Assembly (NCBI GenBank): GCA_017473865.1
Contig: JAFUJB010000002.1
Location: 27,403-91,402, forward strand
Reading direction: 5' to 3'
Origin: Clostridia bacterium
GTDB lineage: Bacteria; Bacillota; Clostridia; Oscillospirales; CAG-272
DNA: 64,000 nucleotides
The position numbers and the translations under genes are program-made. The notes under the pieces are model-generated. The model made no database searches. It saw nothing but the letters and a program-made list of their open reading frames with translations, and had not been told where the DNA came from. Positions 1,487-61,146 of this stretch are shown one piece after another (position 1 is the stretch's first letter; each line of letters opens with the position of its first letter).

Positions 1487-2818
1487 ATGGAGAAAACTGT
1501 GCAGAACATACTTGATTTTTTTAACACGTTTATATTCGGACCTGCGTTGCCCTTTGTAGTATTTGCCTTTGGGGGATGGCTTTTTATAAAATACGGTTTG
1601 TTTATTATATGCAGACCGCAGAAGATAATATCAGTAATTACGAGAAAAAACACAAAAGACGGCATTTCTCCCTTCAAAACGGCAATGTTAGCTTTGGCGA
1701 GTACGCTGGGGGTAGGGAACATAGTAGGGGTATCGACCGCCATATATTCGGGGGGACCTGGGGCGGTATTCTGGCTGACTTTAAGCGCATTTGCCGCAAT
1801 GCCCCTCAAATACGGTGAGGTCGTTCTCGCAATGAAAACGCGCGAAAATAAAAACGGAGAATACAGAGGCGGCGCAATGTATTATATGCGTAAGCTTCTT
1901 AAAAGCAAAACGCTGCCCGTCATCTTTGCATTTCTGTGCATTGTAAACGCGTTCACCGTTGGAAATATCGTACAGATAAACGCGGTAACAGAGTCTTTTG
2001 AAAAGTTCTTTTCAGCCAAGCCGATTTTTATCGGTACTTTGATGTCAGTCATAATTTTTCTGTCCATATCAAAGGGGACGAAAAGGGTGTCGGGAATTAC
2101 GTCAAAGCTTATACCGCTTGCAACTGCTATCTATACTCTCCTGTCGCTCTATATAATTATTGTAAACTTCGGCAAGCTCGGAAGCGTTTTGAGTCTGATC
2201 ATAAAAGAAGCTTTCAGCGTTAAAGCGGCGATAGGCGGTGTAGGCGGATATGCGATAACAAGGGCAATGCGCTACGGTGTCGCGAGGGGGATAATGTCAA
2301 ACGAAGCGGGCAGCGGAACGTCGCCTATCGCGCACGCAAAGTCTAACCTTGAAAGTCCCGCTGAACAAGGCTTTTGGGGCATATTCGAGGTGTTTGCCGA
2401 TACGGTTGTAATGTGTAATCTGACGGCTCTCGTCATACTGTTTTCATATACCGAAGGAGTAGTTGAAAAAGGCTTGACGGGAATGGAGCTTGTACTCTTT
2501 TCCTATTCAAAATATGCAGGGAATATTGCAGGATATATAATCGTCATATCCGTATTTTTGTTTGCATACGCAACGGTAATATGCCAAGGCTTCTACGGCA
2601 GAGAATGTGTATACTATCTCTCCGAAAAAAAGGCGTATACAAGTATATATACGCTGCTTTATTGCCTCGCTGTCGTCTATGCTTCGCAAATATCGGGCAA
2701 GCTTCTCTGGAGTCTTACCGACTTCAATATCTCTCTTATGACCTTGATAAATACCGTATGTATACTCATACTTTCAAATGAAATAAAAAAAGAAACGGAT
2801 GCGTATTTTGCTGAGTGA
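1487..2818 (+). CDS. Sodium:alanine symporter family (AGCS) amino-acid transporter
   Basis: A 443-residue polytopic membrane protein. GVGNIVGVSTAI (about 75-86) with GGPGAVFW (89-96), and SNEAGSGTSPIAHA near 271-284, are hallmark motifs of the alanine or glycine:cation symporter family, which couples amino-acid uptake to Na+ or H+. About ten hydrophobic segments can be read and the length is normal. The exact substrate (alanine, glycine or glutamine) cannot be told from sequence. The ATG at 1487 has only a weak upstream ribosome site but follows a good promoter. It stands alone, divergent from groS and followed by a long repeat region. Confidence 0.9.
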   Translation: MEKTVQNILDFFNTFIFGPALPFVVFAFGGWLFIKYGLFIICRPQKIISVITRKNTKDGISPFKTAMLALASTLGVGNIVGVSTAIYSGGPGAVFWLTLSAFAAMPLKYGEVVLAMKTRENKNGEYRGGAMYYMRKLLKSKTLPVIFAFLCIVNAFTVGNIVQINAVTESFEKFFSAKPIFIGTLMSVIIFLSISKGTKRVSGITSKLIPLATAIYTLLSLYIIIVNFGKLGSVLSLIIKEAFSVKAAIGGVGGYAITRAMRYGVARGIMSNEAGSGTSPIAHAKSNLESPAEQGFWGIFEVFADTVVMCNLTALVILFSYTEGVVEKGLTGMELVLFSYSKYAGNIAGYIIVISVFLFAYATVICQGFYGRECVYYLSEKKAYTSIYTLLYCLAVVYASQISGKLLWSLTDFNISLMTLINTVCILILSNEIKKETDAYFAE

Positions 2819-2860
2819 AAACTATTTACCATAATAAATCGAAGTATTCAACCCATCTTA

Positions 2861-3232
2861 GTCTCGCGTACGCTCGACAGCTCTCCCGAAGGGAGAGCCT
2901 TTTTGGCGAGTGTAACCACTTGCCCTCGTCAGAGGAAGCCGAGAAAGAAAACGCTCTCGCGTTTTCTTGGAAAGGCACAAATAGTCAGGGGCTTCGCCCC
3001 CGAACCCCCGTTCGCTGAACATTATGGCTTCCACAAAACCGTGTTGTCTTGCGGCGTTGCCGCCAGGAGCTTCGCTCCCGAACCCACACAAAAGGACACT
3101 TTTGGAAAAGTGCCCTCTTGACTCCCTCAAAACTTTTCTTATTGGGTTAACGGGACGTCGCCCATACAAATTGTTAACGCGCGTTAAAGGGTTCAGCCGG
3201 GAGGGAACTGTCGAGCGACTGAGAGACTGAAG
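2861..3232. repeat. MITE-like intergenic repeat with imperfect inverted ends and many tetraloop hairpins
   Basis: This fills most of the 599-bp gap between the symporter and the next gene. The left end contains CGCTCGACAGCTCTCCC and the right end carries its imperfect reverse complement around GGGAGGGAACTGTCGAGCG, sharing an exact CGCTCGACAG core, so the ends are inverted repeats. Inside are short GC hairpins closed by TTCG- or CGAA-like loops: CTCTCC/GGGAGAG near 2882, GAAAACGC/GCGTTTTC near 2949, GGGGC-TTCG-CCCC near 2989 and GGAGC-TTCG-CTCC near 3067. A 31-bp stretch (3064-3094) recurs exactly, inverted, at 61387-61417. The remaining flanks (2819-2860, 3233-3350) show nothing I can name. 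Confidence 0.75.
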
Positions 3233-3351
3233 GAGAAAGGGCTTCAATGAAGTAAACTTAAATTTAAAGTCACGCGGGCTCATTTCGTCACGTTTCATGC
3301 CACCGCCCCAAAGGTGTAGGCAAAAAGTTACACTATATCGCAAAAAATATA

Positions 3352-3380
3352 TTGACATTTCTTGTGAAATAATGTAGAAT
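3352..3380 (+). promoter_or_regulatory. SigA-type promoter of the Thr-rich lipoprotein gene
   Basis: Consensus TTGACA, 17-bp spacer, TAGAAT. It ends 37 bp before the ATG. Confidence 0.75.
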
Positions 3381-3417
3381 ACCTCGCGTTAAATGCTAAA
3401 AAAGAGGTAATCAATCT

Positions 3418-4353
3418 ATGAAATCAATTAATAAGCTTATGTTAACGTTTTTGTTGTGCGTAGTAGTTGTTTTTTGTGCTTGTGGCAAGGAAGATATAAC
3501 TAACACTCCAATTGATAATGAAACTATTTTGGATGATACAACCGCCGACAGTACCGGAACGACAGTTTTATTTGAAACGACGGGAACACCCGAAGATGAA
3601 ACCACTACCCACGTTTCAGAAACCACCATACTTGTAGAAGAAACCTCTACAGAGACTTCTGTACCCGAAGAAGAAACAACAGTAACTCCTGAGTCTACAA
3701 ATGCCCCTGAAACTACAGAAGCTATAAAAGCTCCTAATACAACACAAGTTGATTTACCACACAATCATAACTATTATCGCCCCCAACATCCTTGGGTATA
3801 TGTAAATAATGGTGTTTGGGATGGTTCGGGGTGGCATGATGAGCAAAACAGAGGGAAAATTCGTCCGACTTGTACCGAAAGAGGATTTACAGTTTATGTT
3901 TGTTCTGACTGCGGACATGTAAAATATGATGATTACGTGTCAGCTCTTGGTCATAGTTATACAACTTGGTATGTTGTAAAAGAAGCTACAACTACAGAAA
4001 CTGGCATTAAGGAATGTAGGTGTAGCAGATGTGGTAAAGCACCTATCACTGAAGAAATTCCTAAGAAGGATGCGGTTGCAGATGAATGCTTTATCGATCC
4101 TCGAATTACAAAGCGTAAAATTTTTGGAAAGACTGTGTATGAATATGGTGACTGTGACGTTTGTGATAGACGTACTTGGGGTAATGTTCTTTCAATATTT
4201 ATTTTAGATAATGGTGGACTTCATGTAATTTATGATGACAAAAATGGTGAAATGGTAGAATTTGATGTTTTACCTTTAGATAACTATGCAAGTGGTGGAA
4301 ATATACTTGATGATGGAACTTATACAACTTCGTACGTTGGTGCTTTTTCTTAA
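3418..4353 (+). CDS. Putative lipoprotein with Thr/Glu-rich linker and Cys-rich C-terminal module
   Basis: 311 residues, no confident family name. A lysine-bearing start and hydrophobic core lead to FCACGK, a plausible lipobox with the lipidated Cys at about 22. Residues 25-115 are a low-complexity linker rich in Thr, Glu, Val and Pro, as in surface proteins that span the cell wall. From about 145 there is a Cys-paired segment (CTERG, CSDCGH, GHSYTTW, CRCSRCG) like the short repeats with CxxCG and GHxY found in many clostridial surface proteins. The gene is visibly more AT-rich than its neighbours, suggesting recent acquisition or relaxed selection. It has its own promoter, an AAAGAGGT ribosome site and a terminator, so it is monocistronic. 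Confidence 0.7.
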   Translation: MKSINKLMLTFLLCVVVVFCACGKEDITNTPIDNETILDDTTADSTGTTVLFETTGTPEDETTTHVSETTILVEETSTETSVPEEETTVTPESTNAPETTEAIKAPNTTQVDLPHNHNYYRPQHPWVYVNNGVWDGSGWHDEQNRGKIRPTCTERGFTVYVCSDCGHVKYDDYVSALGHSYTTWYVVKEATTTETGIKECRCSRCGKAPITEEIPKKDAVADECFIDPRITKRKIFGKTVYEYGDCDVCDRRTWGNVLSIFILDNGGLHVIYDDKNGEMVEFDVLPLDNYASGGNILDDGTYTTSYVGAFS

Positions 4354-4409
4354 AATAGTGCAGAAAAGCTATATTTGTGTTGATTAAATGGGTGTTTGAA
4401 GTTTTTTGC

Positions 4410-4433
4410 CCCGCTTTTTTACAAAAAAGCGGG
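4410..4433 (+). terminator. Terminator hairpin after the lipoprotein gene
   Basis: CCCGCTTTTTT and AAAAAAGCGGG pair around a 2-base gap. It lies between convergent genes. Confidence 0.6.
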
Positions 4434-4440
4434 AAATAAA

Positions 4441-4472
4441 ATGGGTACGCGTTTTGCGTACCCATATTTTTT
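4441..4472. terminator. Bidirectional terminator between lipoprotein gene and hom
   Basis: ATGGGTACGC and GCGTACCCAT pair around GTTTT, with a T-tract on the plus side and a T-rich stretch on the minus side. It serves the convergent ends of both neighbours. Confidence 0.75.
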
Positions 4473-4475
4473 ATA

Positions 4476-5669
4476 TTAAAGAATTTCGAGACAAGAAAGA
4501 ACGTCGAGCTTTTCAAGGAGCTTGTCGAGGTCGGCTTTTTTGATTTCGTTTGTAATAAACGCAAATTCGCCGTCTTTGTCAGATAAAGCTTTGTATTCAC
4601 CGAATACTTCTTTAACAGCGTTTTCGCCCGACTTTGTGCATACGTAGTATTTTGCAACCTTTTCACATGCACATGCAAGGTCGTTTCTTTCTGCTTTTGC
4701 CCACTGCTGATTTTTAAGCTCGGGCCTGCCTGCAATGTCAACGATGTCGGCAACAACTGCACTTGCCGTAGGCATCATACCTGCGCCTCTGCCGATAAAT
4801 ATTACGTCGTCAACAGCGTTTCCGTTTACCATAACTCCGTTGAATACGTCGTCAACCTTGGAAAGAAGGTTTGTATAGGGAACAAGTCGGGGAGCAACCG
4901 AAACAGCCATCTTGCCGTTAACGTCTTTTGCCTGACCGATGAGCTTAATGGAATATCCTGCCTCTGCGGCATTCTTTACGTCTTCAAGTCTGATCTTTGA
5001 AATACCCTGAGTTGAAACCTCGGAGGGATTGATAAGCTTTCCGAATGCAATTGCTGCAAGTATACAAATCTTTCTGCAAGCGTCAATACCTTCAACGTCA
5101 GCAGTGGGATTAGCTTCTGCATAGCCTTTCTGCTGAGCTTCTTTGAGGGCAACCTCAAACGTCTTACCGAAGTCGATCATCTGTGTGAGAATGTAGTTTG
5201 TTGTACCGTTGAGAATACCGTTGATCTCGTTAATCTTGTTTGCCGCAAGGCATGTTCCGAGAGGACGGAGAACGGGAATACCGCCGCCTACACTTGCTTC
5301 AAACAGATATCTTGCGTTATTTTCTGCGGCAAGCTTAAGAAGCTCGTCGCCCTTTTCGGCAACTACCTCTTTGTTTGACGTAACTACTGATTTACCTTTC
5401 TTGAGAGCCTGTTCCGAGAAATCGAATGCAGGGTGAAGACCGCCCATAGCCTCTGCAACAATGCTTACTTCGTCGTCGTTGAGAATAATATTGTAGTCGT
5501 GAACTACTTTATCGGCAAAGGGACTGTCGGGGAAATCTCTCAGGTCGAGGATATATTTGACGTTGACTTCGTCGCCAACGTGTTCTTTTATAATTTCTTT
5601 ATTCATTGTGAGCACTTCGGCAACGCCGCTTCCGACAACGCCAAAGCCTAAGATTGCTATGTTGATCAT
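4476..5669 (-). CDS. hom: Homoserine dehydrogenase
   Basis: 397 residues. It reduces aspartate semialdehyde to homoserine with NAD(P)H, feeding threonine, methionine and isoleucine synthesis. The Rossmann GFGVVGSG is at residues 8-15, the SNKEVVA segment near 98-104, and the substrate/dimer region GILNGTTNYIL near 150-160. The C-terminus (about 355-397) is a short ACT-like tail rather than a full regulatory domain, so feedback control is uncertain. GAGGT lies upstream of ATG 5669. It follows the transglutaminase-like gene by 18 bp on the same strand and is probably co-transcribed with it. Confidence 0.95.
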   Translation of the reverse strand: MINIAILGFGVVGSGVAEVLTMNKEIIKEHVGDEVNVKYILDLRDFPDSPFADKVVHDYNIILNDDEVSIVAEAMGGLHPAFDFSEQALKKGKSVVTSNKEVVAEKGDELLKLAAENNARYLFEASVGGGIPVLRPLGTCLAANKINEINGILNGTTNYILTQMIDFGKTFEVALKEAQQKGYAEANPTADVEGIDACRKICILAAIAFGKLINPSEVSTQGISKIRLEDVKNAAEAGYSIKLIGQAKDVNGKMAVSVAPRLVPYTNLLSKVDDVFNGVMVNGNAVDDVIFIGRGAGMMPTASAVVADIVDIAGRPELKNQQWAKAERNDLACACEKVAKYYVCTKSGENAVKEVFGEYKALSDKDGEFAFITNEIKKADLDKLLEKLDVLSCLEIL

Positions 5670-5687
5670 AATTTTACCTCGTGTTTT

Positions 5688-6869
5688 TTATTCGTTGATA
5701 TAATATATCTGAACCGTAACGGAATAGCCGTCTTTGGTTGCAATAAATGCCTGATATGAGCGTGAGAGGATGGACTTTTCGTATTCACCGTTAACTTTGT
5801 CAATTGCTTTCAGCAAGCTTTCTTTGTAATCCTCTTGGTTGTTTGTGTATATGGGATAAATCTCAAAATACTTTTCTTTTTCTTCGACTGCGTTTTTGAT
5901 CTGATTATATGCGATTTCTTCAAATTTATCGGGGGAAACGACCTTTGCGCCTTTTTGCGAATAGTAGTTTTCCGTTGAAGAACAGCGCGGCAGCTTGAAA
6001 TCCTTATACATCAGATGCGATTTTGAAATTTCCGAGTCGGAAAGATTGAAAAATCCGTGAAACGCAAAGTCTGACAGCGCTTCTATGTCGGGATCGTTCC
6101 AAGTACAGTCTATATGATAATATTGGTCATCTTGTTTTACGATGTTCCAAAGATGAGGCTCAACGTCGGTGGCACCTTCGACGATAATACATTCGATACC
6201 GCATCTGTTGAGCAGTATTTTATACGCCGCAGAATAGCCGTCGCAATATGCAAGCTTGTTTATCAATGCTCCGTAAGCCGTATGAGCTGTGAGCGGAATG
6301 TTTTTTTGGTTAGTTGTCGTACCGGCATAGGTACAGTGTTTTGTCAAAAAGTCGTGAATGGCGACTGCCTTTTCAAAATCCGACATATCCTCGGTGGCGT
6401 ATGCGACGCCTGCCGCGCTTACCGCTTCAATCTCCATTTTCATATTATTGATATCAGAAACCGAGAACAGAAAGTTCATTTCGACGTAGGACTTATAGTC
6501 ATCGCAAAACAGCTTGAAGGATGCGGTATCGAGATAAAAATATTCGGGACAATCAAAGGAAATCGCTTTTGCGACTCTCTTGAACTCATCTTCCGAGTAT
6601 TTATAGGGAAGTATCTCGGTGCCTCTCTTATAAGCCTTTGCAGACTCTGAAATAGCTTTGAAAAGTAATTGTTCTTTATATGTCAACTGATTAAAATAGT
6701 AAAGCTCGTCTGAATGTTCCGATTCCAATTCGGATACTTTTTTCTCTTGTATGCGGTATCTCATTTCGATGGAAGCATATATTGCACCAATGCAGATAGC
6801 GCAGAATATCAAAATATATATGGGAATGAGGATAAGCAACCGTTTTTTGCTTTTTTTGATAGATATCAT
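5688..6869 (-). CDS. Membrane-anchored transglutaminase-like superfamily protein
   Basis: 393 residues. One N-terminal membrane segment (about 10-33) is followed by a coiled, charged stretch and an outward-facing domain. The triad of the transglutaminase-like cysteine-protease fold is readable: Cys209 in AYCDGYS, His239 in PHLWNIV and Asp254 in HIDCTWND. Such proteins usually act as proteases or peptide cross-linkers at the cell surface; the substrate is unknown. Transcribed from its own good promoter and followed by hom after 18 bp, a pairing without an obvious metabolic link. The ATG at 6869 has GAGGAGAT upstream. Confidence 0.8.
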   Translation of the reverse strand: MISIKKSKKRLLILIPIYILIFCAICIGAIYASIEMRYRIQEKKVSELESEHSDELYYFNQLTYKEQLLFKAISESAKAYKRGTEILPYKYSEDEFKRVAKAISFDCPEYFYLDTASFKLFCDDYKSYVEMNFLFSVSDINNMKMEIEAVSAAGVAYATEDMSDFEKAVAIHDFLTKHCTYAGTTTNQKNIPLTAHTAYGALINKLAYCDGYSAAYKILLNRCGIECIIVEGATDVEPHLWNIVKQDDQYYHIDCTWNDPDIEALSDFAFHGFFNLSDSEISKSHLMYKDFKLPRCSSTENYYSQKGAKVVSPDKFEEIAYNQIKNAVEEKEKYFEIYPIYTNNQEDYKESLLKAIDKVNGEYEKSILSRSYQAFIATKDGYSVTVQIYYINE

Positions 6870-55787: not shown

Positions 55788-58166
55788 ATGAAAGAAAGAT
55801 TTAAAAAACTGAAAAAAGAGTTGTTTGATAAACTCTACGATCACTTGAATCCGATGCAGAGAAAGGCGGTTTTTACCGTAAATAACCCTCTGCTTATTCT
55901 TGCGGGCGCAGGTAGCGGTAAGACAACCGTTCTGGTAAACAGAATATCCTACATAATAAAATACGGTAATTCTTATAATTCCGAACAAGTACCCTATGAC
56001 CTTGACGAAAGCGACGTAGAAAGGCTCGAAAAGGCAAAAAACGCATCGAAAGACGAGATTGCCGAGATATTGAAAGAATATGCAGTTGACCCGTGTCCGC
56101 CGTGGGCACTTCTTGCCATAACCTTTACAAACAAGGCGGCAAGAGAGATATCCGAAAGACTCGAAAGAGATCTGGGACAGGAAGTAAGCGACGTATGGAC
56201 GGGCACTTTCCATTCGGTATGTCTGCGTGTTTTGCGTAAATACGGAGACCGTGTCGGACTGAAGCCGGGAAGCATTACGATATACGACACAGACGATACG
56301 AAGAGACTTCTTTCAACCTGTATGAAAGAGCTTGACATCGACGAAAAAATGCTTAATCCCAAAATGGTGCGTAACGAGATAAGCAGATGTAAGGATAAAT
56401 TAATTACACCCGAAATGCTTGTTGAAGAGGCGAAAAACAACACACTTACAAGCAATCCGCGTCTTTTGAAGATTGCAAAGGTTTACAGCCACTATCAGAA
56501 AAAACTTGCCGAGGCAAATGCGGTAGATTTCGATGATATAATCGTCAAGACCGTAGACCTTTTGCAAAACGATGAAGAGGTAAGAAGATATTATCAGAGA
56601 AAATTCAGATACGTTTGCATAGACGAGTATCAGGATACCAACCACGCACAGTTTGTTCTGGCGTCGCTTTTTGCAGGCGGCTATAATAACATAATGGCTG
56701 TCGGCGACGATGACCAGAGTATTTATAAGTTCAGAGGGGCAACTATCGAGAATATTCTTAATTTTGACAAGACCTTTGAAAACGTAAACGTAATCAAACT
56801 CGAACAGAATTACAGATCGACGAGCTATATTCTTAATGCGGCAAACTCGGTTATAAGAAACAACTCGGGAAGAAAGGGTAAAGAGCTCTGGACGGACAAA
56901 AAGGGCGGTGAGCCAGTAGTTATCAGACAGAGCGAAACGCAGATAGACGAGGCAAAATATATTGTAAATAAGGTTACAGAGCTTGTCTTGAAAGAAAAAA
57001 GAAACTATTCGGATTTTGCCATCCTTTGCCGTATGAACGCGCAGTCGAGTACTATTGAAAACGTGCTTGTAAAGAGCGGAATACCGTTCCGTATGCTGTG
57101 CGGCCAGCGTTTCTATGAGCGTAAAGAAGTCAAGGATATCCTTTCTTATCTTTGTCTGATAAATAATACGAACGACGACCTTCGTTTGAAAAGAATTGTA
57201 AACGAACCGAAAAGAAAACTCGGCGATACGACAATGGGCGCAGTTGAAAAGATAGCCGCGGCGGAAGAATGCAGTATGTTCGAGGTGATGAGAAACTGCA
57301 CGAAATACAAGGCGCTTTCATCAGCACACACAAGACTGCTTGATTTTGTAAAGATAATTGAATATTTGCAGGAAATGGCGGAATATGTTCCGCTTAATGA
57401 GCTTGTAGAAAAGACCATAAGACTTACGGGATATGAAAATATGCTCATTGAGGGCGGTGAAGCCGAAAAAGACAGACTTGACAACGCCCTTCAGATGATC
57501 TCAAACGCAGAAGAGTATCTGACAAACAATCCGGAGGGCACGCTTGCAAGCTATCTTGACGAAGTATCACTCGTTGCTGATATTGATAACTACGATACCG
57601 AGGCTGATGCGGTAACGGTTATGACCATACACAGTGCTAAAGGGCTTGAGTTTCCCGTTGTGTTTGTTCCCGGATTTGAAGAGGGAATTTTCCCGGGAAA
57701 TCAGTCGGCTTTGTATAACGAGGAGCTTGAAGAAGAAAGAAGACTTGCTTACGTTGCAATTACAAGAGCAAAAGAAAAACTCTTCTGTACCCACGCGTAC
57801 CAGAGAATGCTTTTCGGACAGACGCAGTATAATAAGGTGTCGAGATTTATTGAAGAAATCCCCGATGACTACGTTACAAAAGAGGGAAACGAGCAGAGAA
57901 AAAGCAGCTTTGCTTTCTCAGGCTCGTATTCAAACCAAACAGGTTTTGGGCTATCAAAAGAGCTTTCAAGAAAGACAGAGGTAACAAAAAAGCCTCAGCA
58001 GACGTCTGTTTTTGAGATTGGAAATAGAGTCAAGCACGTAACTTTCGGAGAGGGAACAGTGCTTTCCGCAAAGCAAATGGGAGCAGATATACTCTATGAG
58101 GTTGCGTTTGACAACGCGGGAACGAAAAAGCTTATGAGCACTTTCGCAAAACTAAAAAGAGTATAG
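55788..58166 (+). CDS. pcrA: UvrD/PcrA-family ATP-dependent DNA helicase
   Basis: 792 residues. Superfamily 1A motifs: LNPMQRKAV (Q motif), AGAGSGKTT (about 39-47), TFTNKAAREI, VCIDEYQDTN, GDDDQSIYKFRGA, EQNYRS, VTVMTIHSAKGLEFPVVF and YVAITRAKEKL. The C-terminal end (about 745-792) is the Tudor-like RNA-polymerase-binding module with IGNRVKHVTFGEGTV. It unwinds DNA 3'-5' in repair and removes RecA and stalled polymerases. It is longer by about 50 than typical PcrA through an insert at about 64-100 between the first motifs. Own promoter and terminator. Confidence 0.95.
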   Translation: MKERFKKLKKELFDKLYDHLNPMQRKAVFTVNNPLLILAGAGSGKTTVLVNRISYIIKYGNSYNSEQVPYDLDESDVERLEKAKNASKDEIAEILKEYAVDPCPPWALLAITFTNKAAREISERLERDLGQEVSDVWTGTFHSVCLRVLRKYGDRVGLKPGSITIYDTDDTKRLLSTCMKELDIDEKMLNPKMVRNEISRCKDKLITPEMLVEEAKNNTLTSNPRLLKIAKVYSHYQKKLAEANAVDFDDIIVKTVDLLQNDEEVRRYYQRKFRYVCIDEYQDTNHAQFVLASLFAGGYNNIMAVGDDDQSIYKFRGATIENILNFDKTFENVNVIKLEQNYRSTSYILNAANSVIRNNSGRKGKELWTDKKGGEPVVIRQSETQIDEAKYIVNKVTELVLKEKRNYSDFAILCRMNAQSSTIENVLVKSGIPFRMLCGQRFYERKEVKDILSYLCLINNTNDDLRLKRIVNEPKRKLGDTTMGAVEKIAAAEECSMFEVMRNCTKYKALSSAHTRLLDFVKIIEYLQEMAEYVPLNELVEKTIRLTGYENMLIEGGEAEKDRLDNALQMISNAEEYLTNNPEGTLASYLDEVSLVADIDNYDTEADAVTVMTIHSAKGLEFPVVFVPGFEEGIFPGNQSALYNEELEEERRLAYVAITRAKEKLFCTHAYQRMLFGQTQYNKVSRFIEEIPDDYVTKEGNEQRKSSFAFSGSYSNQTGFGLSKELSRKTEVTKKPQQTSVFEIGNRVKHVTFGEGTVLSAKQMGADILYEVAFDNAGTKKLMSTFAKLKRV

Positions 58167-58169
58167 TTC

Positions 58170-58209
58170 AATAGGCATATCTGCTATGGATATGCCTATT
58201 GATTTTTTT
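58170..58209 (+). terminator. Terminator of pcrA
   Basis: AATAGGCATATC pairs with GATATGCCTATT around seven bases, followed by GATTTTTTT. Its last bases form the -35 of the next promoter. Confidence 0.85.
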
Positions 58210-58227
58210 GTGGGGCTGTGATATAAT
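58199..58227 (+). promoter_or_regulatory. SigA-type promoter of the cobalamin-riboswitch operon
   Basis: TTGATT, 17-bp spacer, TATAAT, about 15 bases before the riboswitch. Confidence 0.78.
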
Positions 58228-58239
58228 CAACGCGTATTT

Positions 58240-58385
58240 TTTGAGGGAAACAGGTGTGAATCCTGTGCGAGCCCGTCGCCGTGTTCAGCGTTAGTTTTTC
58301 ATATCCGAAGCCGCATTCGGAGAAACAGTCATTGGGGATAAACCCGAGAAGGCTTTGAAAAATGCTGTAAGCCGAAATATCTCAA
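58240..58385 (+). promoter_or_regulatory. Cobalamin riboswitch
   Basis: GAGGGAAACAGGTGTGAATC followed by CTGTGCGAGCCCGTCGCCGTG matches the conserved core (GGGAA, GGTG, AATCC and CCCGCnACTGT-like) of the B12 riboswitch. A short CCGAAGCCGCATTCGG stem follows, and GTAAGCCGAAATATCTC near 58367 stands where the B12-box lies. The genes downstream fit cobalamin uptake. The expression platform is less clear: an imperfect dyad at 58397-58440 lacks a T-run, so control may be at translation. Confidence 0.88.
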
Positions 58386-58478
58386 TTAATATAAATCATT
58401 TCGACAAGAAGTACCGCGGTATGCCGGTCGTGAAGAAATGTAAACAACAATTATATATTAAAAAAGGAGAAAAGAATT

Positions 58479-58949
58479 ATGACAACAAAACTCAGAAGAC
58501 TGTTGTCTGTAATCCTTTGTATTGCGCTTATTGCGGTGTGGGCGCTCATTACAGTCGGTTGCAGCAACAAAACAGAAAAACCTCAGACGGACGACCTGCC
58601 GTCAAACAATGACCTGCAGAACGGCGAAATTCAAAACGACGTAACTGTAGTAGGTGAAGGACAGAAGCAGTTTTATTTTTCGGTAATTGAGCTTTCGGGA
58701 AAGGAAACTAATTTTATCGTAAAAACAAACAAAAAGACAGTAGGCGAAGCTTTGGTAGATGTAAAGCTTATTGAGGGAGAGCAAGGAGCCTACGGGCTTT
58801 ACGTAAAAAAAGTAAACGGCATTGTTGCAGATTACGACGTTGATAAAACATATTGGAGTTTCAATATTGACGGCGAATACGCAATGACAGGTGTTGATAA
58901 GACCAATATAGAAGAGGGAAAATCTTATTCTTTCAAGGTGTCAAAATAA
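58479..58949 (+). CDS. DUF4430 (transcobalamin-like C-terminal domain) lipoprotein
   Basis: 156 residues. The signal peptide ends in ITVGC with the lipidated Cys at 28, followed by a polar linker (about 30-60). The remaining domain has the DUF4430 pattern: TVGEALVDVKLIEG, GLYVKKVNGIVAD and YWSFNIDGEYAMTGVDK. This domain resembles the C-terminal beta domain of transcobalamin/intrinsic factor, which covers the bound corrinoid. With the B12 riboswitch upstream and an ECF S gene abutting, the simplest role is capture or hand-over of cobalamin outside the membrane. AAAAGGAGAAA precedes the ATG. Confidence 0.85.
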   Translation: MTTKLRRLLSVILCIALIAVWALITVGCSNKTEKPQTDDLPSNNDLQNGEIQNDVTVVGEGQKQFYFSVIELSGKETNFIVKTNKKTVGEALVDVKLIEGEQGAYGLYVKKVNGIVADYDVDKTYWSFNIDGEYAMTGVDKTNIEEGKSYSFKVSK

Positions 58950-59459
58950 ATGAAACTCAAGATCAGAGAGATAGTATTATTCGGTATGCTTGGGGGATTG
59001 ATGTTTGCGCTTAAGCTGGCAATGGAGTCGTTGCCGAATATACATCTTGTAGGTGTATTGATCGTTGCGATCACCGTTGTTTATAGGATGAAAGCTCTTT
59101 ATCCTTTGTATTTGTTCGTTTTTATATTCGGACTGTATTACGGATTCAGTGTTTGGTGGCTTCCGTATCTGTATATCTGGACGGTGCTTTGGGGAGCGGT
59201 AATGCTTTTGCCCAAGAATATGCCCCCGAAGGTAGCTCCCATAGTTTATATTGCGGTGTGCGGTCTGCACGGATTCTTGTTCGGCGCACTATATGCTCCT
59301 TCGCAAGCGCTTTTGATGGGGCTTAATTTTGAGCAGACACTTGCGTGGATTGCCGCGGGAATTTTTCCGTATGACATAATACACGGAATAAGCAATACAA
59401 TCTGCGGAGTACTCATTATGCCTATAATCAATGTACTTAGACTTGCTGATAGAATCTAA
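58950..59459 (+). CDS. ECF transporter S component, probably cobalamin or a precursor
   Basis: 169 residues with about six membrane helices, normal for an energy-coupling-factor substrate subunit. The first helix region REIVLFGMLGGLMFALKLAMESLPNIHL and the later WWLPYLYIWTVLWG are typical of clostridial S components. The ATG directly follows the lipoprotein stop with no gap. The ECF ATPases and T component are not here, so it must use shared ones encoded elsewhere. Substrate is inferred from the riboswitch. Confidence 0.82.
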   Translation: MKLKIREIVLFGMLGGLMFALKLAMESLPNIHLVGVLIVAITVVYRMKALYPLYLFVFIFGLYYGFSVWWLPYLYIWTVLWGAVMLLPKNMPPKVAPIVYIAVCGLHGFLFGALYAPSQALLMGLNFEQTLAWIAAGIFPYDIIHGISNTICGVLIMPIINVLRLADRI

Positions 59460-59461
59460 AA

Positions 59462-59491
59462 ATACACGGGCATTGCCCGTGTATTTTTTTA
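59462..59491 (+). terminator. Terminator of the cobalamin operon
   Basis: ATACACGGGC pairs perfectly with GCCCGTGTAT around ATT, followed by seven T. Confidence 0.9.
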
Positions 59492-59539: not shown

Positions 59540-59815
59540 AAAAACAAACCGTTGATGCGGAGATAAAGTCGATGATGCTTCCACAGAGAGTCGGGGAAAG
59601 CTGAGAGCCCGATGAAAAACAAGTCGTCAAATGGACCGCGGAGGGCGCAGTCAAAGGCTTTTGCCGAGTATTCTGCGACGTATGGCACACGTCAGATGCC
59701 TGAGATATGATTGTATCTCGCAAAGGTGCATAGCTTTTTGCTATGAAACAAGGTGGCAACGCGGATAAAGTTTATTCGTCCTTGACAGATGATATCTGTC
59801 GGGGATTTTTTGTTT
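59540..59815 (+). promoter_or_regulatory. T-box riboswitch with a Trp (UGG) specifier
   Basis: Stem I has AGAGAG at 59585-59590. GATGAT (5') and GTCGTC (3') form the helix above the specifier bubble, and GCGG/CCGC the helix below. The bubble's 3' side is AAATGGA, so the codon is TGG at 59632-59634. The T-box sequence AAGGTGGCAACGCGG lies at 59750-59764. The terminator TCCTTGACAGA/TCTGTCGGGGA (59779-59805) ends in TTTTTT. Uncharged tRNA-Trp would favour the antiterminator and trpB expression. Confidence 0.93.
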
Positions 59816-59833
59816 ATAAAAAGGAGAAATAAT

Positions 59834-59869
59834 ATGTTCTTAACAAAACGATGGCGGCTCGTTGCCTGA
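59834..59869 (+). CDS. Twelve-codon ORF between the T-box and trpB, possible leader peptide
   Basis: AAGGAG lies 7 bp before ATG, and the frame encodes MFLTKRWRLVA then TGA. It contains one Trp codon and two Arg next to it. It lies after the T-box terminator, so it is translated only on read-through. I see no second attenuator between it and trpB, so its role, if any, is unclear. Confidence 0.4.
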   Translation: MFLTKRWRLVA

Positions 59870-59922
59870 ACTTTAACACAGTAAAATAATAACTACTTAT
59901 ATATACGAAAGAGGAAAAGAAA

Positions 59923-61146
59923 ATGAAATTTAACGGAATTGATTTTGATACTTATTTTAAGAATTATCCCGATGAAAACGGTTATTTCGGCAAATACGGC
60001 GGATGCTATATTTCCGAAGATCTCAAAGCGGCGATGAACGAGATTACAGAAGCATATCAGACTATATGCAAGTCAAGAAAGTTCATCGACGAACTACGCA
60101 GAATCCGCAAGGAATTTCAGGGAAGACCTACTCCTGTATCGCACCTAGACAGACTTTCGGCTAAACTTGGAAACGTTCAGCTTTACGTAAAGAGAGAAGA
60201 TTTGAACCACACGGGCGCTCACAAGCTCAATCACTGTATGGGTGAAGCTCTCCTTGCGAAGTATATGGGCAAGAAGAAAGTAATTGCAGAAACGGGCGCT
60301 GGACAGCACGGTGTTGCTCTTGCGACAGCGGCGGCATATTTCGGTCTTGAATGTGATATTTATATGGGTTCTGTTGATATTAAGAAACAGGCTCCCAACG
60401 TAGCAAGAATGAAGATACTCGGCGCAAACGTTGTTGAAGTTACACACGGTCTTGCAACCTTGAAGGAAGCAGTTGACGCGGCTTTTGAAGCGTATGCAAA
60501 GGAATACAAGGATGCTATTTACTGTATAGGCTCGGTACTCGGACCCCATCCTTTTCCTATGATGGTACGTGATTTCCAGAGCGTTGTCGGTATCGAAGCG
60601 AGAGAACAGTTTGTTGATATGACGGGTGAGCTTCCCGATGCAATCGTTGCCTGTGTAGGCGGCGGATCGAATGCGGCAGGATTTTTCTCGGGATTCTTGA
60701 ATGACCACGTTGATATATACGGTGTTGAACCTCTCGGCAGAGGTCCCAAGCTTGGCGACCACGCTGCCAGCTTAAAATACGGCACAGAGGGAATTATGCA
60801 CGGATTCAACAGCATAATGCTTAAGGATGAAAACGGCGAGCCTGCTCCCGTATATTCAGTAGCCAGCGGACTTGACTACCCTTCGTCGGGACCTGAACAC
60901 GCGTTCCTGCATGATCTTGGCAGAGTTATTTATGACGTTGTTGACGACGAAGAAACGATTGACGCTTTCTTTACACTTTCAAGACTTGAGGGTATTATTC
61001 CCGCTATTGAAAGCGCACACGCAGTTGCATACGGTATGAAGCTTGCAAAGAAGATGGGCAAGGGTTCAATCCTTATCAACCTCTCGGGCAGAGGCGACAA
61101 GGATATGGATTACGTAATCGAACACTACGGCATCAGAGAAAAATAA
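59923..61146 (+). CDS. trpB: Tryptophan synthase beta subunit, solitary
   Basis: 407 residues. The PLP lysine is Lys101 in HTGAHKLNH (usually HTGSHKINN). Catalytic Glu lies in AETGAGQHG, the phosphate loop is GGGSNAAG, and SGRGDKD is at the end. Other spots differ from the classic enzyme, such as [10 protein letters not shown] and [10 protein letters not shown]. It joins indole and serine to give tryptophan. No trpA or other trp gene is beside it, so it may salvage indole alone or pair with a distant alpha subunit. The Trp T-box upstream gives specific control. AAAGAGGAAAAG precedes the ATG. Confidence 0.94.

Follow-up and report, generated by a model that had tools for sequence, protein, structure and literature searches.

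A likely corrinoid uptake unit in a Clostridia bacterium: a cobalamin riboswitch ahead of a DUF4430 lipoprotein and a CbrT-type ECF S component

We describe here a short transcription unit in a 64,000-nucleotide stretch of DNA (the window, whose positions serve as coordinates throughout) from a gut Clostridia bacterium (Oscillospirales; CAG-272; assembly GCA_017473865.1, contig JAFUJB010000002.1), in which a cobalamin riboswitch precedes a gene for a DUF4430 lipoprotein and a gene for a CbrT-type S component of the energy-coupling factor (ECF) importers. It is likely, in our view, that this is a riboswitch-controlled two-gene corrinoid uptake unit, in which the lipoprotein captures the ligand and feeds it to the S component. 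The riboswitch, the lipoprotein signal, the DUF4430 homology, the CbrT homology and the conserved pairing of the two genes were each computed, and the three parts named in the original prediction, namely the riboswitch, the lipoprotein and a zero-spaced S gene, were all recovered. The features that carry the argument are these:

58240–58430, + strand: cobalamin riboswitch, with the RF00174 core at 58244–58382
58460–58469, + strand: ribosome-binding site of the lipoprotein gene, AAAAAAGGAG, read from the sequence
58479–58949, + strand: DUF4430 lipoprotein gene, 156 amino acids, with its ATG at 58479 and its stop codon at 58947–58949
58791–58802, + strand: codons of Tyr105-Gly-Leu-Tyr108, aligned with Trp359-Gly-Pro-Tyr362 of haptocorrin
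58950–59459, + strand: CbrT-type ECF S component gene, 169 codons and amino acids, with its ATG at 58950

We propose that, when cellular cobalamin is low, the riboswitch would permit expression of both genes. The lipoprotein, held on the outer face of the membrane, would bind cobalamin or related corrinoids, and would do so with the face that the beta-domain, or lid, of the animal B12 carriers uses. It would then hand the vitamin over to the CbrT-type S component, which lies in that membrane too, or hold it there, and the S component would carry it across with power that, in most relatives, would come from the general ECF motor (EcfA, EcfA′ and EcfT). We thus infer ligand binding by each protein, contact between the two, the direction of transfer and, for the source organism, the use of an ECF motor. 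The transfer step has a parallel in a heme ECF transporter that reportedly receives heme from a number of host proteins, driven by affinity (PMC7299338), an example of an S component obtaining a large tetrapyrrole from a protein. A lone beta-like domain could bind a corrinoid, because the beta-domain of the animal carriers has been proposed as their primary site for corrinoids (PMC3360681), and because the two fragments of intrinsic factor, once separated, can reassemble into a tight complex and still bind cyanocobalamin tightly (PMC6257451).

With RF00174, whose gathering score is 31.5, the riboswitch scores 36.4 bits (E 1.3e-5 in the scan of the window; model positions 45–169), and it is the single RF00174 match reported in the source assembly. 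An alignment of 22 leaders, the window leader included (set A8), places the start of the outer helix at about 58240 and an L13-like hairpin at about 58411–58428; its 40 predicted pairs include 25 with compensatory changes on both sides, in leaders all chosen because RF00174 matches them. The minimum-free-energy fold of the window leader on its own is no better than those of shuffled sequences (z 0.05), and the support for the riboswitch is therefore comparative. The B12 box reads AGCCGAAATA in the window and AGCCAGGAGA in the Rfam consensus. The variant AGYCGRAATR is present in all 22 leaders, and none has AGYCMGGAGA, which we take to be the consensus form of the box and which agrees with the Rfam consensus line of the window match. 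The variant may mark a riboswitch subgroup made up of window positions 58240–58390 and 21 related leaders, and such a departure from the consensus means that ligand choice could differ. Since the terminator scan lists no terminator between the aptamer and the start codon, the riboswitch likely acts on translation.

Relatives of the unit are often preceded by the same class of RNA. Among 80 named loci, 40 were scanned, and in 33 of these (18/20 and 15/20) an RF00174 match over cut-off precedes the pair. The S profile was tested in 146 genomes, the source genome included, and finds the protein in 65 of them, at 66 places; at least 26 of these places have RF00174 within 1500 bases upstream, two of the 26 (in G010 and G073; genomes are labelled G and loci L) below cut-off, and the figure is a lower bound because strict filters lose weak matches. 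Over cut-off, the 29 fetched loci of relatives (L004–L032) yield eight RF00174 matches and one match to AdoCbl-II; of the remaining 20, 12 carry an AdoCbl-II match and two an RF00174 match below cut-off, at the same place and on the same strand, with E values from 8.6e-5 to 0.08.

The lipoprotein matches DUF4430 (PF14478) at residues 87–153 with 33.1 bits against a cut-off of 23.8 (E 7.6e-8). This is the only Pfam family over cut-off in the protein, with no substrate-binding-protein family found, and it is matched at E up to 0.01 by all 55 members of a wider DUF4430 set (A4). The predicted tethering outside the cell is borne out by a lipobox cysteine, Cys28, that follows a hydrophobic leader; the call was made by inspecting leader and cysteine. 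Cys28 is kept in 29/29 sequences of the lineage set (A2). Among 77 named relatives, one is truncated by a contig end and the other 76 have a cysteine preceded by Gly, Ala, Ser or Asn. The proposed kinship with the lid of the animal B12 carriers holds with a broad profile, built from 20 diverse DUF4430 partners (A7), which finds 3U7Z, the closest solved DUF4430 structure, at 8.6e-30, haptocorrin at 2.6e-5 and intrinsic factor at about 0.1. When the window DUF4430 family is compared by profile with five distant partners, the result is 98.2% (E 4.2e-14). Haptocorrin R-S-W-G-P-Y aligns on window G-A-Y-G-L-Y, and from the spacing we read the former as residues 357–362, of which Arg357, Trp359 and Tyr362 have been described as bulky beta-domain residues that stabilise the haptocorrin–corrinoid complex (PMC4350170). 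The aromatic-Gly-x-Tyr/Phe stretch at 105–108 is kept in 27/29 sequences of the lineage set and 51/55 of the wider one. At 156 residues the protein shows no alpha6-alpha6 domain by Pfam, and for that reason we do not class it as a transcobalamin.

The S protein has hydrophobic segments along its whole length. Pfam gives no match up to E 10, PF12822 and PF07155 included, and NCBIfam gives none, so that it is by profile comparison only that the protein is tied to ECF S components; CbrT-like proteins also lack an NCBIfam match over cut-off, and distant homologues such as that of L123 match PF12822/PF07155 over cut-off. Among PDB chains up to E 10, a profile of 29 S sequences, the window protein among them (A1), matches only chain A of 6FNP, the S component CbrT of the vitamin-B12 transporter ECF-CbrT, at 5.9e-7 and over nearly the full length. 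Rodionov 2009 is reportedly the source of the CbrT prediction. Aligned by hhalign with a set of six CbrT-like proteins, of which four are encoded on named Lactobacillales plasmids and two in other genomes, the same profile gives 98.6% (E 7.7e-16, 157 columns); the set of six finds 6FNP at 6.8e-57, and one member alone does so at 5.3e-26. In a panel of eleven the S profile scores nine S proteins between 4e-36 and 2.5e-9 (Z set to 1000). Helix 1 keeps a small-xxx-small motif, presumably the AxxxA motif by which S components dock, in 28/29 and 66/66 sequences. Four proteins of about 790–890 amino acids (L183 142–2802, L184 7–2589, L185 336–2936 and L186 576–2960) begin with two ATP-binding cassette (ABC) ATPase domains and end with a CbrT-like S domain; they read as an ECF transporter minus T in one chain, and they tie the S fold family to ECF transporters. 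An identity of the window protein with CblT, the alpha-ribazole S component, was considered and rejected, the protein of pMF1298-5 that we take as CblT from PMC6722938 and its gene position near cobS being unmatched by the profile, a weak control in that the CbrT of pMF1298-5 is missed too. Separately, Gut-1 RNA matches lie just 3′ of the S gene at L026 (192–373) and L028 (1237–1416), one per strand at each, those on the + strand below cut-off.

The start codon of the S gene directly abuts the TAA stop of the lipoprotein gene, with zero spacer, and the association recurs widely. A DUF4430 gene stands directly upstream of the S gene in 29/30 loci, the window locus included, and by hidden Markov model (HMM) in 77 of the 80 named loci; L067 makes a 78th, its DUF4430 protein being seen by Pfam only (3.2e-15), and the sequence of L059, with none by HMM, starts with the S gene. 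Of 398 genomes drawn across the phylum, 61 match the S profile, and 11 of 29 phylum-wide loci beyond the window's own (L118–L146) have DUF4430 (10 by HMM and L125 by Pfam, 4.2e-17), the remaining 18 being mostly weaker S matches. The DUF4430–S pair is thus real and widespread. It also occurs on a Subdoligranulum variabile record deposited as a plasmid (OY725838.1, L147). The one locus of the 30 that lacks DUF4430 is L031 (1501–1992); its S homologue, which has an in-frame TAG and stands next to RNase P RNA and a thiamine pyrophosphate riboswitch, looks like a decayed copy. Elsewhere, at L122 (2443–3438), DUF4430 and S precede a biotin-type carrier, identified by eye, and an OAD_beta gene (PF03977, 4.8e-86), as they do by eye in L124, L125 and L126; these neighbours are as in sodium-pumping oxaloacetate or methylmalonyl-CoA decarboxylases.

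In several relatives the neighbours of the pair are B12 genes. On a Lactobacillus intestinalis plasmid the order is nrdJ, DUF4430, ECF S and cob(I)yrinic acid a,c-diamide adenosyltransferase, on L. plantarum pLp900-2 it is nrdJ, adenosyltransferase, DUF4430 and S, and at L123 a cobalamin adenosyltransferase gene follows DUF4430 and S. The L. intestinalis order matches nrdJ-cbrS-cbrT-pduO, as published for L. delbrueckii (PMC5997447), and because of this the window lipoprotein is probably the counterpart of CbrS, with L. delbrueckii cbrS presumed, by synteny with L. intestinalis, to encode DUF4430. The window unit is functionally coherent, since both of its genes connect to cbrS-cbrT and the S gene connects to a solved B12 transporter. 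The proposal of a membrane S subunit that serves B12 thus finds support in the CbrT homology, in the riboswitch and in the relatives' NrdJ, adenosyltransferase and RACo neighbours. The source genome also encodes a methionine-synthase-like protein with B12-binding domains.

Other relatives add toroid-like proteins to the same parts. L067 (342–3013) has in a row a weak toroid protein of 382 residues (squalene-hopene cyclase family, at 22.4 bits below the cut-off of 26.1), a DUF4430 lipoprotein and a CbrT-like S component; toroid and DUF4430 proteins here may be the counterparts of both domains of the animal B12 carriers, beside an importer subunit. L170 encodes, behind an RF00174 match below cut-off, a toroid-like/DUF4430 protein (DUF4430 at 4.3e-13, the toroid-like region below cut-off), an EcfT-like protein (22.7 bits against 25), tandem ABC genes and S. 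L159 has a similar set behind RF00174 over cut-off, its EcfT-like gene unmatched at 1e-5. Behind another RF00174, L162 combines DUF4430, toroid and SLH anchors in one protein of 1034 residues, and no S gene was seen in the 7 kilobases taken of that locus. The single proteins of L170 (3429–4985) and L162 (2307–5411) show the two-domain plan of transcobalamin, in either order. In the L187 operon (2187–6838), which comprises EcfT, tandem EcfA/ABC, a toroid/SLH protein and S, the toroid stands beside S in place of DUF4430.

Several results weigh against a lipoprotein that captures corrinoids for a motor-driven S component. Six of the 29 relatives' loci (L007, L017, L018, L029, L030 and L031) have no riboswitch match at E up to 1. 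At L041 (727–2304) the S gene has no DUF4430 gene directly upstream; RACo, a corrinoid-protein activator (PF14574, 1.1e-76), is there instead, in the only named locus of this kind. With the DUF4430 profile built from the lineage alone, haptocorrin is matched only at E 0.046, the aromatic-Gly-x-Tyr stretch is found in just 9/20 of the diverse partners, and three named Lactobacillales DUF4430 proteins, along with other distant ones, are without it. The pMF1298-5 S component called CbrT scores only 0.27 with the S profile, which therefore recognises part of the CbrT family only. In the CbrT paper (PMC5997447), cbrS is named once, in a sentence on gene order, and is absent from the passages on constructs; since ECF-CbrT restored cobalamin-dependent growth, the lipoprotein would probably be an aid to transport and is probably not essential for it. 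As to the motor, EcfT (PF02361) is found in 139/146 genomes, 59/65 S-positive and 80/81 S-negative, so that S-positive genomes are without it slightly more often (6/65 vs 1/81; Fisher p 0.045). PF02361 finds no EcfT in the source assembly (G000, rated 70% complete), in G001 (84%) or in G003 (97%), queries taken from the genus mate G002 found neither EcfT nor a close EcfA′ there, and the same three assemblies also yielded no copy of a methyltransferase gene that flanks the motor genes in G002 (PF10672, 7.5e-14) and G004.

Of the expected shared ECF motor, EcfT is present in the great majority of S-positive genomes, and the motor was not found in the source assembly or in two of its four genus mates. 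That the S component is, in its own genus, a solitary transporter without an ECF motor would account for the absence of EcfT and a close EcfA′ from three of the five genus assemblies, one of them 97% complete, where only weaker ABC-ATPase matches were obtained (best 5.2e-30, vs 2.2e-154 in G004). However, G002 and G004 have the motor module, with EcfA′ and EcfT of G004 at 82% and 75% identity to the G002 queries, and the small-xxx-small motif of helix 1 is conserved. A single unbinned contig would explain why these three assemblies also lack the flanking methyltransferase, which makes an assembly gap as good an account as motor loss, and we regard a solitary transporter as very unlikely. The lipoprotein, for its part, could be a metal-binding or structural partner that binds no corrinoid, with S alone importing: 3U7Z is titled a putative metal binding protein, and ECF-CbrT moves B12, no need for CbrS being reported (PMC5997447). 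Against this stand the haptocorrin profile match with its aligned corrinoid-contacting aromatics and the close pairing of the lipoprotein gene with riboswitch and S genes, and a literature search by the code 3U7Z found no evidence behind the title among the matches listed; we judge a non-corrinoid role to be distinctly unlikely.

It is also unlikely, if less so, that the unit imports another corrinoid or precursor (cobinamide, pseudocobalamin or alpha-ribazole) and that cobalamin is the regulatory signal only. CbrT has been reported to carry cobinamide too (PMC5997447), and the B12-box departure shared by the whole leader alignment could change ligand choice. On the other hand, complete cobalamin is what the NrdJ and adenosyltransferase operons of related pairs require. 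Nine CbrT-like proteins are recognised by the S profile and the putative CblT is not (a weak control, given the score of the pMF1298-5 CbrT), and cobinamide transport alongside cobalamin would be compatible with a cobalamin uptake unit. A different possibility, which we entertain without expecting it, is that the lipoprotein is a lid and not a shuttle, closing over cobalamin seated on the outer face of S, so that the two form a split, membrane-bound carrier in which S takes the role of the alpha-domain. Cobalamin in the animal carriers is held by an alpha6-alpha6 barrel on one side and the beta-domain on the other, and intrinsic factor split into its two fragments can reassemble tightly (PMC6257451); the beta-domain as suggested primary corrinoid site (PMC3360681) fits as well, and the window lipoprotein has the beta-like domain only and is coupled with S. 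No sequence feature separates a lid from a shuttle, however, and the toroid is kept in L170, in the same chain as DUF4430 and beside S, and in L067, as a neighbour (both below cut-off), so that an S cup would be unneeded there. A broader version, which we offer as rather doubtful, would be a split transcobalamin at the membrane: the lipid-anchored DUF4430 protein and the CbrT-type S component would together clasp cobalamin, S replacing the alpha-domain, the toroid/DUF4430 relatives would be the full-length counterparts, and the variant-box riboswitches would form a distinct subgroup, perhaps with a ligand preference of their own.

The two-gene uptake unit that we favour is best placed among known systems by what it shares with each. 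Like CbrS-CbrT of L. delbrueckii (6FNP), it has a small exported DUF4430 protein (by the L. intestinalis synteny) directly before a CbrT-family S component in a B12 context; it differs in that its S component is only distantly related, in that the pair stands alone behind a cobalamin riboswitch, and in that its DUF4430 domain keeps the aromatic-Gly-x-Tyr stretch. With the beta-domain of haptocorrin, intrinsic factor and transcobalamin it shares the DUF4430 homology (by the haptocorrin match) and two corrinoid-contact aromatics in register, whereas the window protein is bacterial, lipid-anchored and without an alpha-domain, and its corrinoid binding is a prediction. CbrT-type loci with their own motor (CbrUVT in PMC6593275 and PMC6722938) resemble it in their CbrT-like S, DUF4430 proteins and riboswitch match (L159, L170), but have tandem ABC genes alongside and large DUF4430 proteins with toroid-like regions, whereas the window locus has no motor genes. 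In BtuF-BtuCD, too, an external binding protein feeds a B12 membrane importer, although the protein families are others. The Bacteroides surface lipoproteins that capture B12 (PMC6143338) are likened to the window protein by role and not by homology, and belong to a Gram-negative system.

The CbrT S family with its solved B12 transporter and the pair names cbrS-cbrT were thus already known, which lowers the novelty of the unit; what is new is a riboswitch-controlled variant with a DUF4430 lipoprotein. The original prediction knew of no detailed study of such a pair, and this stands for the lipoprotein within the literature searched, and does not stand for its partner, whose family has been studied and whose pairing already has a name. 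Among the matches listed, which covered open PMC papers and no preprints and make a weak negative, none treats a bacterial DUF4430 protein as a binder of B12, and CbrS is named but not studied in the papers searched. The S protein is common, occurring in 65 of the 146 genomes above, and at least 559 stretches of a GTDB collection encode a relative, yet the window S has no name in Pfam or NCBIfam, and a survey of gut-bacterial genomes treats the identification of B12 and precursor transporters in numerous genomes as an open problem (PMC6593275). The pair points to a widespread, little-studied route of B12 capture in Gram-positive bacteria. ECF importers have been described as using membrane S subunits, in contrast to binding lipoproteins (PMC7299338); if the lipoprotein binds corrinoids, they would use a binding lipoprotein after all for a large substrate, and bacteria would have an equivalent of the lid of the animal B12 carriers, similar in role. 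Should the split carrier be true, animal B12 carriers and a Gram-positive importer would share one lid-and-cup binding principle.

The unit lies between a UvrD/PcrA helicase gene and a T-box with a PALP gene, with the following features around it:

55788–58166: UvrD/PcrA helicase gene (Pfam UvrD-helicase, 1.6e-81, and PcrA_UvrD_tudor)
58168–58202: terminator-like hairpin preceding the unit, from the hairpin scan
58199–58227, + strand: promoter-like site TTGATT-17-TATAAT just 5′ of the riboswitch, by consensus match
about 59460–59491, + strand: intrinsic-terminator-like hairpin with a T run that closes the unit, read from the sequence
59543–61146: T-box and PALP gene resembling trpB

By consensus match only, the region holds eight promoter-like sites, against 5.0 expected, and the closing hairpin, read by eye, is absent from the output of the terminator scan. 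Positions 59543–59869 hold the T-box leader ahead of the trpB-like gene (RF00230, 95.9 bits) and, after it, a possible 11-codon frame for the peptide MFLTKRWRLVA at 59834–59869, with a Trp codon and a ribosome-binding site of its own. A strict search of all fetched loci, few of which extend that far, returned the peptide pattern only from the copies of the source genome.

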